This document shows positions 3,753 through 16,920 of a DNA stretch of 64,000 nt, piece after piece. Each line of letters begins with the position of its first letter. The stretch's first letter is position 1. Location of the stretch: the NCBI RefSeq assembly GCF_003952365.1, contig NZ_CP034443.1, positions 4,023,001-4,087,000 on the forward strand. Reading direction: 5' to 3'. The DNA comes from Mesorhizobium sp. M9A.F.Ca.ET.002.03.1.2 (GTDB lineage Bacteria > Pseudomonadota > Alphaproteobacteria > Rhizobiales > Rhizobiaceae). The translations under genes were made by a program, and so were the position numbers. Under the pieces are notes generated by a model. The model saw only the letters and a program-made list of their open reading frames with translations, was not told where the DNA came from and made no database searches.

Positions 3753-4250
3753 TCAGCCTTTGTCTGTGCCGATCCAGTGATCGAGCGCAATCCGGCCGGG
3801 TCCCCACGCCATGATGCCAAGCGCCATCGCCGCCCATGTGATGTGCAGCGGCCAGCCGTCCGGCACGGTGAGCTGTATGACCAGCGTCATCAAGAGCATG
3901 CCGAATGCAGCCAGTCGTGTCGCCAGGCCGAGAACGAGGAGAATTGGCAACAGAATCTCCACCGACGCCGAGGCGAACGCCACCAGCCCAGGTGCGGGAA
4001 ATGCATAAGGTCCACCGGGCAGATGCAGCTTGAACTCCGAGCTGAAGAGCAGCACGGCGACATCGTTCAACTGCAGAAAGCCGTCCCATTTGTTGACGCC
4101 GGACCGCCAGAACGGGACGGCGAGCGCGCAGCGCAGGACAAGCTGCGTCAGCGATGGGGTGGCAATCGCGCGCAGGGCGGCATTCACCCTTTCGGCAAGG
4201 GCGGCGATCCCTCGCGGCCCGGTGCTCGCGTTCCGCACATGGTTCGTCAT
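3753..4250 (-). CDS. DoxX family membrane protein of the bufferin operon
   Basis: This 165-residue protein has four hydrophobic segments and a DoxX pattern (RCALAVPFWRSGVNKWDGF, then ASASVEILLPILLVLGLATR). DoxX proteins are small inner-membrane proteins linked to thiol or quinone redox chemistry; their exact reaction is unsettled. It is the last gene of the bufA-bufB-bufC-doxX operon. The ATG at 4250 overlaps the bufC stop as ATGA and sits 7 nt after GGGAG, better spaced than an ATG two codons upstream. A role in quinone-linked electron supply or export for the metallophore is inference from context. Confidence 0.88.
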   Translation of the reverse strand: MTNHVRNASTGPRGIAALAERVNAALRAIATPSLTQLVLRCALAVPFWRSGVNKWDGFLQLNDVAVLLFSSEFKLHLPGGPYAFPAPGLVAFASASVEILLPILLVLGLATRLAAFGMLLMTLVIQLTVPDGWPLHITWAAMALGIMAWGPGRIALDHWIGTDKG

Positions 4251-5053
4251 GGCCATTCTCCCTGGTGTGCCGCTGTGAAGGCGCCCGCTTGCAGCAGGCC
4301 GGCGATGTTGGCGGGAAGGTCGAATTCGGCACGCTCCGCAAATGCAGCCGCGGCAGCCGCGCCGAGTGGCTCGCCCGCCATGAGACGATTCAGAAAAACC
4401 GCGCCGCCGGGCGGCAGGTGGCGAACGAAGACTTCAAGCCCGGGCCGCGTGACCAGCGCATCTTCGGGGCCGTCGGCCTCGATCCGCCCTACGGGACCGT
4501 CGCTCCGGTTTGCAGCGAAGATCGTCACGGCCGGATAGCACGAGCGTATGGCGCGTGTTGCCGGATGCGGCACAAACACGGTATTGGCCAGTCGTTCGGG
4601 CGGGATCGACGCCAGTGCTCCGGACGCCAGCGGTTCCGCGTCGGCGGCATGATAGGCGTCGAGCCAGGCCCGCTCCATTCGCGCCACGTCGGCCAGCCAG
4701 GGCATCGACTGGGCGTATTCGTAGCGTTCGATGAAATCGGGAAAGTCGCGGCCGTATTCGAATAGAAGCGGCGAGGTCGGTGGTGTTTCGCGAACATGAA
4801 AGCGCGCCATCGCGCGAAAGAAGTCCGGGCCGGTTATGCGCAGCGTCGCCGGGAAACTGGCGGCCAGCGCATCGATCAGGCTGACGGTGACGTTGTTGCG
4901 GTAGACGGCATATCGCTTGACCGCAGCCTTCCCGTTCGGCCCCGAGACAGCGTCGGGCGGGACCCGGTCAGGATCGAGCAGGCCGGCGGTGAACGCCGCG
5001 GCATAGTCGAACCGGCGACCGGGATCGCCCGGCTGGATCTCATCCTGCGGCAT
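4247..5053 (-). CDS. bufC: BufC-type MNIO partner protein (HvfC/BufC N-terminal domain, DUF2063)
   Basis: This 268-residue protein resembles the DUF2063 or HvfC/BufC family, which binds the precursor leader and delivers the peptide to the MNIO enzyme encoded next door. Typical features are the early [12 protein letters not shown] helix, then [30 protein letters not shown] and [10 protein letters not shown], and [31 protein letters not shown]. It overlaps bufB by 14 bases and the DoxX gene by four, showing tight coupling. The bufC symbol is assigned from family and operon order. Confidence 0.9.
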
Positions 5054-5957
5054 GGACTTTTCCGAACAAGCTGTGGGCGTGACGGTCGAGGATCGCCTGG
5101 GCGGCGGCGGCTTCGGCCTTGAGCACCGGCCAGTCGGGAATGTCGCTGTCCCATTCGATCAGCGTCGGGAGCGGCCCGCACCGGCCGATGACGATATCGA
5201 AGAGCTTCCAGACCGCGTCGGCGACCGGGCCGTCATGGCTGTCGATCAGCAGAAGATCGCCCTCGTCATCCTCCTGCTCGGCGTGCCCTGCCAGATGGAT
5301 TTCGCCGACGTGGTCGAGCGGGAAATCCGCGAGGTATGAACGTGCCGAATAGCCGTGATTGGTGGCCGAAACGAAGACGTTGTTGACGTCGAGCAGCAAA
5401 CCGCAACCGGTACGCCGCACCAGCGCGCCGATGAAATCCGTCTCGCTCATCGTCGATTCCGGGAAAAGGACGTAGGTCGAGGGGTTCTCCAGCAGGATCG
5501 GGCGGCCGATCGTCTCCTGCACTTCGTCGATGTGATCCGCCACGCGCGAAAGCGTTGCCGGCGTGTAGGGCAGGGGAAGCAGGTCGTTGTAATAGGTGGT
5601 GTCGTGGGTCGACCAGGCGAGATGCTCGGAAACAAGCGCTGGCTCATAGCGGTCGACGAGCGCCTTAAAACGATCGAGGTGCGCTTTGTCGAGCGGCCGC
5701 GGTCCGCCGATCGACATGCACACCCCGTGCAGCGAAACGGGATAGTCGCGGCGGATATTGGTCAGCGCGTCGTGCGGCGGGCCGCCGGCGCCCATGTAGT
5801 TTTCGGCATGGACCTCGAAGAAACCGTCCTTTGGGCCGTCGCCGAGGATCGCGTGTAGATGCTCATGCTTGAAACTCGTGCCGGCAAGGCCGGCGACCGG
5901 GTGTGCCGGAAAGCGCGAGGTTTTCGACACGCGGGATGGTGGGACCAGTCCGTTCAT
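5040..5957 (-). CDS. bufB: BufB-type multinuclear nonheme iron oxidase (MNIO, DUF692)
   Basis: The 305-residue product belongs to DUF692, TIM-barrel enzymes that use two or three iron ions to oxidise cysteines in peptides. Likely metal or active-site residues are visible in order: [61 protein letters not shown] and [10 protein letters not shown]. In bufferin systems this enzyme turns core cysteines of the precursor into sulfur heterocycles that bind copper. The ATG at 5957 follows CGGAGG with good spacing; an ATG at 5987 would have no such site. It follows bufA and overlaps bufC. Confidence 0.94.
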
Positions 5958-5990
5958 CTTCGCCTCCGCTTTCCAGGCAGGTTGCATTGC

Positions 5991-6314
5991 TTACGACGGG
6001 ATGTCGCGGGTCAGTTCCGTCGGCGAGCCCTTGCGGTCGCCCGGCAGTTCCATCGTCGTGCAGGTGCCGCCGTCGACAAACTTCCAGGCGTTGCCCTGGT
6101 AATCGACGGTCGAAGTGCCTTGGCAGGTAGTGCCAGGTCCTGCCGCACAGTCGTTCTGCCCCTTCATGGCGACGCCAAAGCACTTCTCCTTGCCGGCATC
6201 CATCGCCGCCTTGACCTCTGCCTCGGTCAGCGGCGCGGCCATCGCAAAAGAAGCAAGAGCCGTGGCAACGGCGCCGGCCAGAAAGGCTGCGCTTACGGTT
6301 GATCTTGTCGACAT
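5991..6314 (-). CDS. bufA: BufA1-type periplasmic bufferin metallophore precursor (DUF2282)
   Basis: This 107-residue secreted peptide begins with a signal sequence (hydrophobic 8-26, likely cleavage after AMA). It contains four cysteines at 45, 56, 64 and 85 in the DUF2282 pattern: [28 protein letters not shown]. In the Caulobacter bufferins, cysteines of such precursors are modified by the BufB MNIO and the product sequesters copper in the periplasm. A near-perfect ribosome site (CGGAGGTGA) precedes the ATG at 6314. An in-frame extension upstream to 6413 covers the promoter and lacks family similarity. It is the first gene of the operon. Confidence 0.93.
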
Positions 6315-6371
6315 GATTTCACCTCCGATTGGGTTGTTGAGCGCGCCATTCCTCAAGCGCGCATTGATCAG

Positions 6372-6579: not shown

Positions 6580-6628
6580 GAGCATGATCCCGAAAAGTGG
6601 AATCCGGTTTTCGGACAAGATCATGCTC
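6580..6628. repeat. palindromic intergenic repeat (RIME-like), copy 1
   Basis: Inverted arms AGCATGATC (6581-6589) and GATCATGCT (6619-6627) enclose an inner near-palindrome (CCCGAAAA / TTTTCGG). Similar elements recur at 21019, 32361, 38415 and 58913, which marks a dispersed mesorhizobial repeat rather than a gene-specific site. Confidence 0.8.
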
Positions 6629-6640
6629 AAACAAGGAGAT

Positions 6641-6674
6641 AGAGCCCCATCCCGATTCGTCGGGATGGGACTCT
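6641..6674 (+). promoter_or_regulatory. strong hairpin in the leader of the YbaY-META gene
   Basis: Arms 6641-6655 and 6660-6674 pair with one internal C-A mismatch around a stable TTCG tetraloop; the core is CCCATCCCGA / TCGGGATGGG. It ends about 2 nt before the ribosome site AGGGAG of the gene at 6688. It could act on translation or mRNA stability, or be a repeat remnant. Confidence 0.6.
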
Positions 6675-6687
6675 AGGGAGCAGGATC

Positions 6688-7455
6688 ATGCTGGACAGGA
6701 TCGCTGAGTTCCTCATCTTCGGCTTCGTGCCGCTGATCGTTGGCATATTGGCTGTGCCGGACCAGTCCGTCGCTTCGGAGAAGACCCTGAAGGGCGAGGT
6801 GATGTATCGCGAGCGCATCGCGCTGCCGCCCAACGCCGTGCTTTCCGTGCAGCTAGCCGATGTCTCGCTGGCCGACGCGCCAGCCGCTGTCATCGGCGAG
6901 CGCAAGGTGGCGCCGGCCGGCCAGGTGCCGATCAAGTTCGAGATCAGCTTCGATCCCCAGGTGATCCGGCCTGCCATGACCTATGCGCTACAGGCGCGCA
7001 TCACCGTCGACGACAGGCTGTTGTTCGTCTCCGATACGCGCCATCAGGTCGATCCGCTGAGCGACGCGCCGCAGACCATCATGCTGAAGATGGTGACGTC
7101 GAGCGAGAAACCTGCAGCGGCTCCGGTGCTCGGGCAGAGCTGGCTGATCGAGTATATCGACGGCATTGGTGTGATCACCGAGCCGCAGGCGACGTTCACG
7201 ATCAGCGAGGCCGGCAAGGCCGGCGGCAGCGGTCCTTGCAACGTCTATTTCGCCACCGCCAAAGTCGATGGTTCGACGATCGCCATCTCTGACATCGGTT
7301 CGACTTTCAAAGCCTGCGCGCCCGAGATCATGGCCGAGGAAAAGGCGCTGTTCGAGGCGCTGGCCAAGGCAGCGTCCTACCATGTAGACGCCGGCAAGCT
7401 CGTCATCGCCGACAAGGACGGCCGTGTCATCCTGCGCTTCAACGCCGCGAGCTAG
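6688..7455 (+). CDS. secreted YbaY/YscW-like and META domain protein
   Basis: The 255-residue protein has an N-terminal export signal (hydrophobic 8-22, likely cut after VAS). Next comes a YbaY-type beta-sandwich (LKGEVMYRERIALPPNAVLSV ... FEISFDPQVI). A C-terminal META domain follows (SWLIEYIDGIGVI, then GSGPCNVYFATA and IGSTFKACAPEIMAEEKALFEAL). META domains are found in HslJ and in envelope proteins tied to motility or antibiotic tolerance. No lipobox cysteine is seen. A ribosome site AGGGAGCAGGA precedes the ATG. It appears monocistronic, with a hairpin in its leader. Its precise role is unknown. Confidence 0.82.
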   Translation: MLDRIAEFLIFGFVPLIVGILAVPDQSVASEKTLKGEVMYRERIALPPNAVLSVQLADVSLADAPAAVIGERKVAPAGQVPIKFEISFDPQVIRPAMTYALQARITVDDRLLFVSDTRHQVDPLSDAPQTIMLKMVTSSEKPAAAPVLGQSWLIEYIDGIGVITEPQATFTISEAGKAGGSGPCNVYFATAKVDGSTIAISDIGSTFKACAPEIMAEEKALFEALAKAASYHVDAGKLVIADKDGRVILRFNAAS

Positions 7456-16738: not shown

Positions 16739-16920
16739 TTGGCGTCAGCACCTGATGGCTGCTGACAGCGTCGAATGCACGTGGACACAAGCGAAGGGCG
16801 GCCTCGGTAACATTACCGCGAGCCTGTAACGTTCGCCGTCGCTGGCACGAACAACGGACCGTATCCTCATGTCCGCCATGGCGGGATTACTTGCCCGCCG
16901 ACACCTTCAGGAGTCAAGAA

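Follow-up and report, generated by a model that had tools for sequence, protein, structure and literature searches.

The 64,000-nucleotide stretch of Mesorhizobium sp. M9A.F.Ca.ET.002.03.1.2 analysed here (contig NZ_CP034443.1, positions 4,023,001 to 4,087,000; hereafter the window) carries, on its minus strand from 6314 down to 3753, a complete operon for a bufferin of the Buf1 kind: a DUF2282 precursor peptide (bufA), an MNIO (DUF692) maturase (bufB), a DUF2063 partner (bufC) and a DoxX-family protein (bufD/doxX). Taking all evidence together, we consider it very probable that the whole constitutes a Buf1 operon driven by the extracytoplasmic function (ECF) sigma factor SigF, which yields a modified peptide that buffers excess copper, with DoxX beside it. 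The operon itself is ordinary, and the addition made here is a modest regulatory hypothesis, as the conservation of its upstream motif suggests remote control by SigF, whose gene lies 3.3 Mb away.

Architecture and class of the operon

The four genes overlap or nearly touch each other. Precursor and MNIO genes are separated by 3 bases, bufB and bufC overlap by 14 bases (5040-5053), and bufC and doxX overlap by 4 bases (4247-4250), provided that the ATG at 4250 is the start codon of doxX, the position with which the start of the close relative L026 aligns. The original prediction had placed a signal-peptide precursor of DUF2282 type, an MNIO, a DUF2063 protein and a DoxX protein in one minus-strand operon with just these overlaps, and we recovered all four genes at the same coordinates. 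Their products score far above the respective Pfam cut-offs (DUF2282, 81.2 versus 22.4 bits; PF05114, 351.9 versus 25; PF09836, 87.6 versus 27.2; PF07681, 62.8 versus 23.6). Among 110 loci, namely 80 from named genomes and 30 others including the window's own, with some species in both sets, we counted open reading frames that end in a stop codon and reach a minimum of 60% of the full length: 108 loci had one for the precursor, 110 each for MNIO and the DUF2063 protein and 109 for DoxX, some of these being fragments or weak DoxX matches. Based on the high scores and on the recurrence of the four reading frames, the presence of a canonical, complete Buf1 operon beyond chance is confirmed.

The assignment to the Buf1 kind rests on the NCBIfam equivalog NF050167, which BufB matches with 378.9 bits (cut-off 310), so that the bufferin identity originally proposed holds. 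We also tried the two related classes, the Buf2 and the oxazolin/Hvf clusters (captophorins), which share the MNIO, the DUF2063 partner and often DoxX, and make copper-binding thiooxazole peptides (PMC12452194, PMC13097082). Both were rejected: the Buf2 model (BufA2, NF050166) reached 23 bits against a cut-off of 60, and the Hvf models stayed below theirs as well (HvfB 232 of 360, HvfC 37.4 of 142, HvfX 55.3 of 80 bits). In addition, precursors of these classes have 6 or 12 cysteines (Buf2) or EGKCG repeats, whereas the window precursor has four cysteines and no EGKCG repeat was found in it. With BufB above its cut-off and BufA2, HvfB, HvfC and HvfX below theirs, the operon belongs to the Buf1 kind and to neither of the others.

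The four cysteines of the precursor (Cys45, Cys56, Cys64 and Cys85) occur without exception in all 97 distinct precursors compared, among them that of the window. Read by eye, the N-terminus resembles a Sec signal, with an arginine near the start, a hydrophobic core and an AMA site. A structure model of the precursor adds little (mean predicted local distance difference test, pLDDT, 75.2, with residues 1-25 below 50), and a search of the PDB at E-values up to 0.1 returned no sequence relative of it. In the enzyme, H87, E167, D200, H231, D249, H251 and E278, the likely MNIO metal ligands, are each conserved in 103 or all of the 104 distinct enzymes and align with the same seven residues of the solved MNIO 3bww.

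In Buf1 peptides, the central cysteines are the targets of modification, and a disulphide links the first to the last; the Caulobacter peptide chelates copper through thiooxazoles and allows better growth in excess copper (PMC12452194), and the thiooxazole assignment is treated further in PMC12538549. By analogy with Caulobacter and other work, the expected reading is that the window peptide is likewise modified and binds copper. From the four-electron oxidation, we infer a mass change of -4 Da per thiooxazole. The shift of -4 Da per cysteine pair originally suggested has to be corrected to one per modified cysteine, the two central residues being modified and the outer two joined in the disulphide (PMC12452194).

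A conserved, predicted SigF-type promoter

Upstream of bufA, the predicted promoter GTAAC-N17-CGAA (6397-6372) can also be read as GTAACa-N16-CGAA, and it matches both the SigF motif of Caulobacter, GTAACC-N16-CGAA (PMC3511200), and the promoter of RpoE7 from Sinorhizobium meliloti, TGTAACA-N16-CGAA (PMC6180224). The word GTAAC-N17-CGAA occurs twice in the 64-kb window, compared to 0.12 expected from shuffling; the second occurrence (16826-16851, plus strand) is not followed by a convincing gene start and is probably due to chance.

Conservation was followed in two sets of loci, which share ancestry, so that the counts do not represent independent events. For the first set, we used the best 80 of 579 loci from a BufB scan of named genomes and dropped one (L047) that had no precursor in view. 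The motif, with a spacer of 16 or 17, lies upstream of the precursor in 63 of these 79 relatives, 62 times at 69-89 nt, measured to the start of the precursor match; the reversed word occurs in none of the 79 upstream regions. Where sigF lies no more than 3.5 kb from the precursor, 19 of 22 relatives carry the motif; where it does not, meaning that no match of more than 40% identity to the SigF of this genome occurs in that range, 44 of 57 do so. Three of these 57 (L032, L034, L035) have an NrsF match nearby, and where neither gene is near, 41 of 54 carry the motif. Among all gapped words of this form, GTAAC-CGAA ranks first, being found in 62 of 78 unique upstream regions compared to an average of 0.135 and at most 1 among shuffled ones; the next two words (28 upstream regions each) overlap with it, and the best unrelated word reaches 19. 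The second set stems from the genus of the window, in which BufB has at least 55% identity at 34 places. Thirty of them were examined, one (L161) having no precursor in view, and the motif stands upstream in 29 of 29 (BufB identity 55-100%, window included), with distances here taken to the start codon.

The distant sigF-nrsF pair and a further candidate target

The genome consists of one contig of 6.4 Mb and contains a single NrsF gene (173.6 bits) near 727 kb, that is 3.3 Mb from the operon at 4.03 Mb. Directly upstream of nrsF lies an ECF sigma gene, which is itself preceded by GTAAC-N16-CGAA. With the start codon chosen in our analysis, the only cysteines of NrsF are at positions 129 and 179. 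Cys129 and Cys179 are functional residues in OsrA from Bradyrhizobium (PMC3420878), and comparable cysteines are found at 131 and 181 in NrsF from Caulobacter (PMC3511200). Of the 146 genomes of the genus, 140 have NrsF and 66 have DUF2282, so that the constant purpose of the SigF-NrsF switch is unlikely to lie in bufferins.

Among the 30 motif sites in the genome, one precedes a gene for a DUF1223 protein with a signal-like start and a CxxC motif. In the 30 best-scoring loci of the genus, which are not a random draw and include the own locus, the motif lies 47-77 nt upstream of this gene in all 30, and a match to the protein occurs in 144 of 146 genomes, weaker paralogues included. This conservation makes the DUF1223 gene a candidate core target of SigF. 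A regulon predicted genome-wide from the motif alone was also attempted and rejected, the bare word lying below its reversed control, and only conserved sites were kept.

As an observation aside, the window-type operon of one further genome (G119) spans both ends of a contig of 285,993 bases (C2; L186/L187), which is therefore probably a circular plasmid. The motif is kept there, and the adjoining sigF match is broken over two frames, as if a linked sigma gene had been lost.

Table 1. Features of the bufferin operon in window coordinates and the candidate SigF target elsewhere in the genome
Feature	Position	Strand	Basis or remark
bufA, Buf1-type bufferin precursor, 107 aa, DUF2282	5991..6314	-	ATG at 6314
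Putative Sec-type signal peptide of the bufA precursor, residues 1-26 ending AMA	6237..6314	-	read by eye
DUF2282 core with four Cys, precursor residues 42-90	6045..6191	-	domain match
bufB, MNIO (DUF692) bufferin maturase, 315 aa	5040..5987	-	Pfam, NF050167, alignment to 3bww
bufC, DUF2063 partner protein, 268 aa	4247..5053	-	open reading frame and Pfam
bufD/doxX, DoxX-family protein	3753..4250	-	start 4250 preferred; longest open reading frame starts at 4256
Shine-Dalgarno sequence GGAGG of bufA	6322..6326	-	sequence
Predicted ECF16/SigF-type promoter GTAAC-N17-CGAA	6372..6397	-	sequence and conservation; 83 nt upstream of the bufA start codon
Gene for a DUF1223 protein with signal-like start and CxxC	G000:C1:1524730-1525437	minus	SigF-type motif upstream

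A second bufferin operon, possibly under different control

Outside the window, near 6.248 Mb (about 6248.3-6251.0 kb), the same genome carries a second complete four-gene bufferin set, the enzyme of which is 47% identical to the window BufB. No exact GTAAC-N16-18-CGAA was found in the 16 kb surrounding it. The same holds for 29 further loci of this second type (L106-L134, the best-scoring ones and not a random draw), none of which contains GTAAC-N16/17-CGAA on either strand within the sequence examined. Instead, an invariant block of about 20 nt, ATGCCGAGACAGCATTTCAG, is common to 30 of 30 aligned second-type upstream regions, the own one included. The block may represent a site for protein binding, a leader RNA or a piece of a small open reading frame. 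Allowing up to three mismatches, it is found once in this genome. In a draw of 297 genomes of the family, it recurs with two mismatches in five other genomes, all from other genera; three of these matches (L188, L189 and L190, from three genera) precede a second-type bufferin operon, and at the other two (L191, L193) no bufferin gene was found.

These patterns lead to the idea that two bufferin systems may be separately controlled in Mesorhizobium, an idea which we regard as equally likely to be right or wrong. The window operon would then be an optional module on a near-universal SigF-NrsF envelope-stress switch with the secreted DUF1223 CxxC protein as its constant target, and the second operon, with its divergent enzyme and partner, would be under a further regulator acting via the invariant element.

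Proposed mechanism and alternative explanations

For the window operon, we propose that periplasmic metal or thiol stress would inactivate the membrane anti-sigma factor NrsF and free SigF, which would read the promoter at 6397-6372 and start transcription of the operon. BufB together with BufC would oxidise the central Cys56 and Cys64 to thiooxazoles before Sec export, the disulphide between Cys45 and Cys85 would close in the periplasm, and the mature peptide would buffer excess copper. DoxX in the inner membrane, most likely a quinone-linked redox partner or else a tether for the mature peptide or for its copper, is the least certain step, and any action ascribed to it is speculative. Of this path, the genes and their order, the conserved cysteines and likely active-site residues, the conservation of the promoter and the single sigF-nrsF pair are shown by the present analysis; modification, copper binding and induction are carried over from other organisms.

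The original prediction had singled out DoxX as a fixed partner with an uncharacterised role. On the role we agree; as a novelty, DoxX has to be given up, since precursor, MNIO, DUF2063 and DoxX genes already form the published cores of bufferin clusters (Antoine et al., 2025, PMC12452194), and four-gene clusters with DoxX are on record in Caulobacter, Cupriavidus and Legionella (PMC8224329, PMC10304878, PMC5413113). PMC13097082 discusses thiooxazoles and also whether DoxX may contribute to copper binding. Going one step further, DoxX could be a redox enzyme that connects the quinone pool with periplasmic Cu(I) or with the thiols of the bufferin by electron transfer, which would make it part of the detoxification itself. 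Hirth et al. (2023, PMC10304878) have suggested a comparable role for GigT and GigP, and the DoxX and DoxD homology of the protein points in the same direction. In an alignment of 40 proteins, that of the second operon included, the invariant residues comprise Arg42, Glu74, Glu100, Arg114, His138, Trp141 and Asp159, and a confident model (mean pLDDT 89.8) has four long helices (34-54, 89-109, 113-130, 132-151), which we read as membrane helices, and a further helix at 15-31. Window-type proteins share a well-conserved stretch at 55-88, part of which is absent from the DoxX of the second operon. Against the redox role, DoxX has no conserved cysteine, Cys43 occurring in 19 of 104 sequences. On balance, we see the redox enzyme as a possibility to be held tentatively, somewhat more doubtful than not.

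The same chemistry could also serve a load that is not mainly copper, but gold, silver, mercury or thiol and oxidant stress, the peptide being a general soft-metal or thiol buffer. Several findings from related systems fit to this: in Cupriavidus, the gig operon reacts not only to copper but also to gold and silver (PMC8224329), MerC-bufferin fusions exist (PMC12452194), the SigF regulon of Caulobacter responds to chromate and cadmium (PMC3511200), and the ECF16 factor EcfF of Bradyrhizobium responds to H2O2 (PMC3420878). The SigF motif in front of the DUF1223 gene in 30 of 30 loci can be counted on this side, too. Nevertheless, the copper chelation by the Caulobacter Buf1 peptide with its growth benefit in excess copper (PMC12452194) and the copper sensitivity of Caulobacter after inactivation of sigF (PMC8224329) make a load other than copper unlikely, and we keep copper as the main load of the window peptide.

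With respect to SigF control and copper, a number of points weigh against our explanation. The exact motif is missing in 16 of the 79 named relatives, including three of the 22 with sigF within 3.5 kb, and loci from Oricola, Nitratireductor, Aquibium and Roseitalea are among those lacking it. The motif also occurs on the opposite strand in 16 of the 79 upstream regions, 13 of them near sigF or nrsF, where a divergent sigF promoter would explain it, and three not. Genome-wide, the bare motif is not enriched, with 18 occurrences versus 31 of the reversed control for N17 and 12 versus 68 for N16, so that position and conservation carry the argument for a promoter. In S. meliloti, reporters for rpoE7 and SMb20530 did not respond to H2O2, cadmium or chromate (PMC6180224), and in Cupriavidus deletion of gig left the copper resistance of the parent unchanged and made a difference only in some multiple mutants (PMC10304878). 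As a separate observation, the loci from Oricola, Nitratireductor, Aquibium, Roseitalea and their relatives have weak, short or no matches to the window DoxX, and two loci of the group lacking the motif (L091, L099) show a second precursor-like match in front.

One could argue that the motif is merely ancestral sequence and that the operon is now under another promoter or silent. No sigF or nrsF match lies beside the window operon, and, as stated, the motif count of the genome does not exceed its control. On the other hand, the 44 relatives without a nearby sigF keep both boxes at a similar distance with differing spacer letters, and the genome retains a sigF-nrsF pair with its own motif, which leaves an ancestral relic quite improbable compared to SigF control. 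That the operon is decayed or non-functional is hardly credible at all; a broken relative does exist (G145, the MNIO match of which is split over two frames), yet all four genes of the window are open and of full length, with cysteines and likely catalytic positions intact.

Comparison with known systems

The closest parallel is the Buf1 cluster of Caulobacter vibrioides, which has the same four genes in the same order and a SigF-type promoter in front of the precursor gene; these genes, CCNA_03363-03366 (DUF2282, DUF692, hypothetical, DoxX), are copper-induced and under SigF (PMC8224329). In contrast to the present genome, where the pair is distant, sigF of Caulobacter (CCNA_03362) adjoins the operon, and a second cluster there (CCNA_02999-03001) is also regulated by SigF (PMC8224329), whereas the second operon described here lacks the SigF motif. 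Among rhizobia, S. meliloti has the four-gene operon SMb20530-20527, the two middle genes of which encode DUF692 and DUF2063 proteins and which RpoE7, an ECF16 factor, targets most strongly (PMC6180224). It resembles the window operon as a rhizobial set of this composition read by an ECF16 factor, but is divergent from its own sigma gene (rpoE7-ecfR7) and is not termed a bufferin operon in the available passages of that paper. The gigPABT genes of Cupriavidus metallidurans and the GIG operon of Legionella likewise combine DUF2282, DUF692, DUF2063 and DoxX and are induced by copper and gold (PMC10304878, PMC5413113). Their regulation differs, as the ECF gene rpoQ lies divergently beside gig in Cupriavidus, with the dependence on RpoQ unproven (PMC10304878), and RpoS has an influence on the Legionella operon (PMC5413113).

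In the literature covered, which left most subscription papers out of scope, we found no work that joins ECF16 to bufferins or Mesorhizobium to DUF2282. Nor did we find in this literature a description of SigF-type bufferin promoters without a nearby sigma gene, of the contrast to the second type or of the DUF1223 link.

Relatives and neighbourhood

The original prediction of a bufferin in a rhizobial relative is borne out by the five nearest named loci (L026-L029, L085), which are all from Mesorhizobium with 89-93% BufB identity; M. ventifaucium, M. metallidurans and M. prunaredense are among these nearest relatives. As in the window, relatives of moaE, pgsA and ndk surround the operon in five of the five loci and uvrC in four. 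Within the genus, a window-type BufB (at least 87% identity) is whole in 17 genomes, the own included; in two others (G119 and G145) it is split or lies at the edges of contigs.

The divergent neighbour of the operon (6688-7455, plus strand) encodes YscW-like and META domains and accompanies it in 15 of the 17 whole window-type loci, the own included (L143-L159). Between this gene and the bufferin promoter, two inverted repeats can be read by eye (6580-6628 and 6645-6670), the first of which resembles the interspersed palindromic repeats of rhizobia.

Biological meaning

Bufferins are recently described modified peptides. By its predicted promoter, the standard cluster found here is probably tied to a distant sigma switch that almost all examined genomes of the genus possess, and the second cluster of this genome seems to be controlled in another way. 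If the reading of two separately controlled systems is true, bufferins would respond to two or more distinct signals within the same cell. The pair of promoters in one soil bacterium may thus offer a handle on which signals bufferins answer and on what DoxX does.

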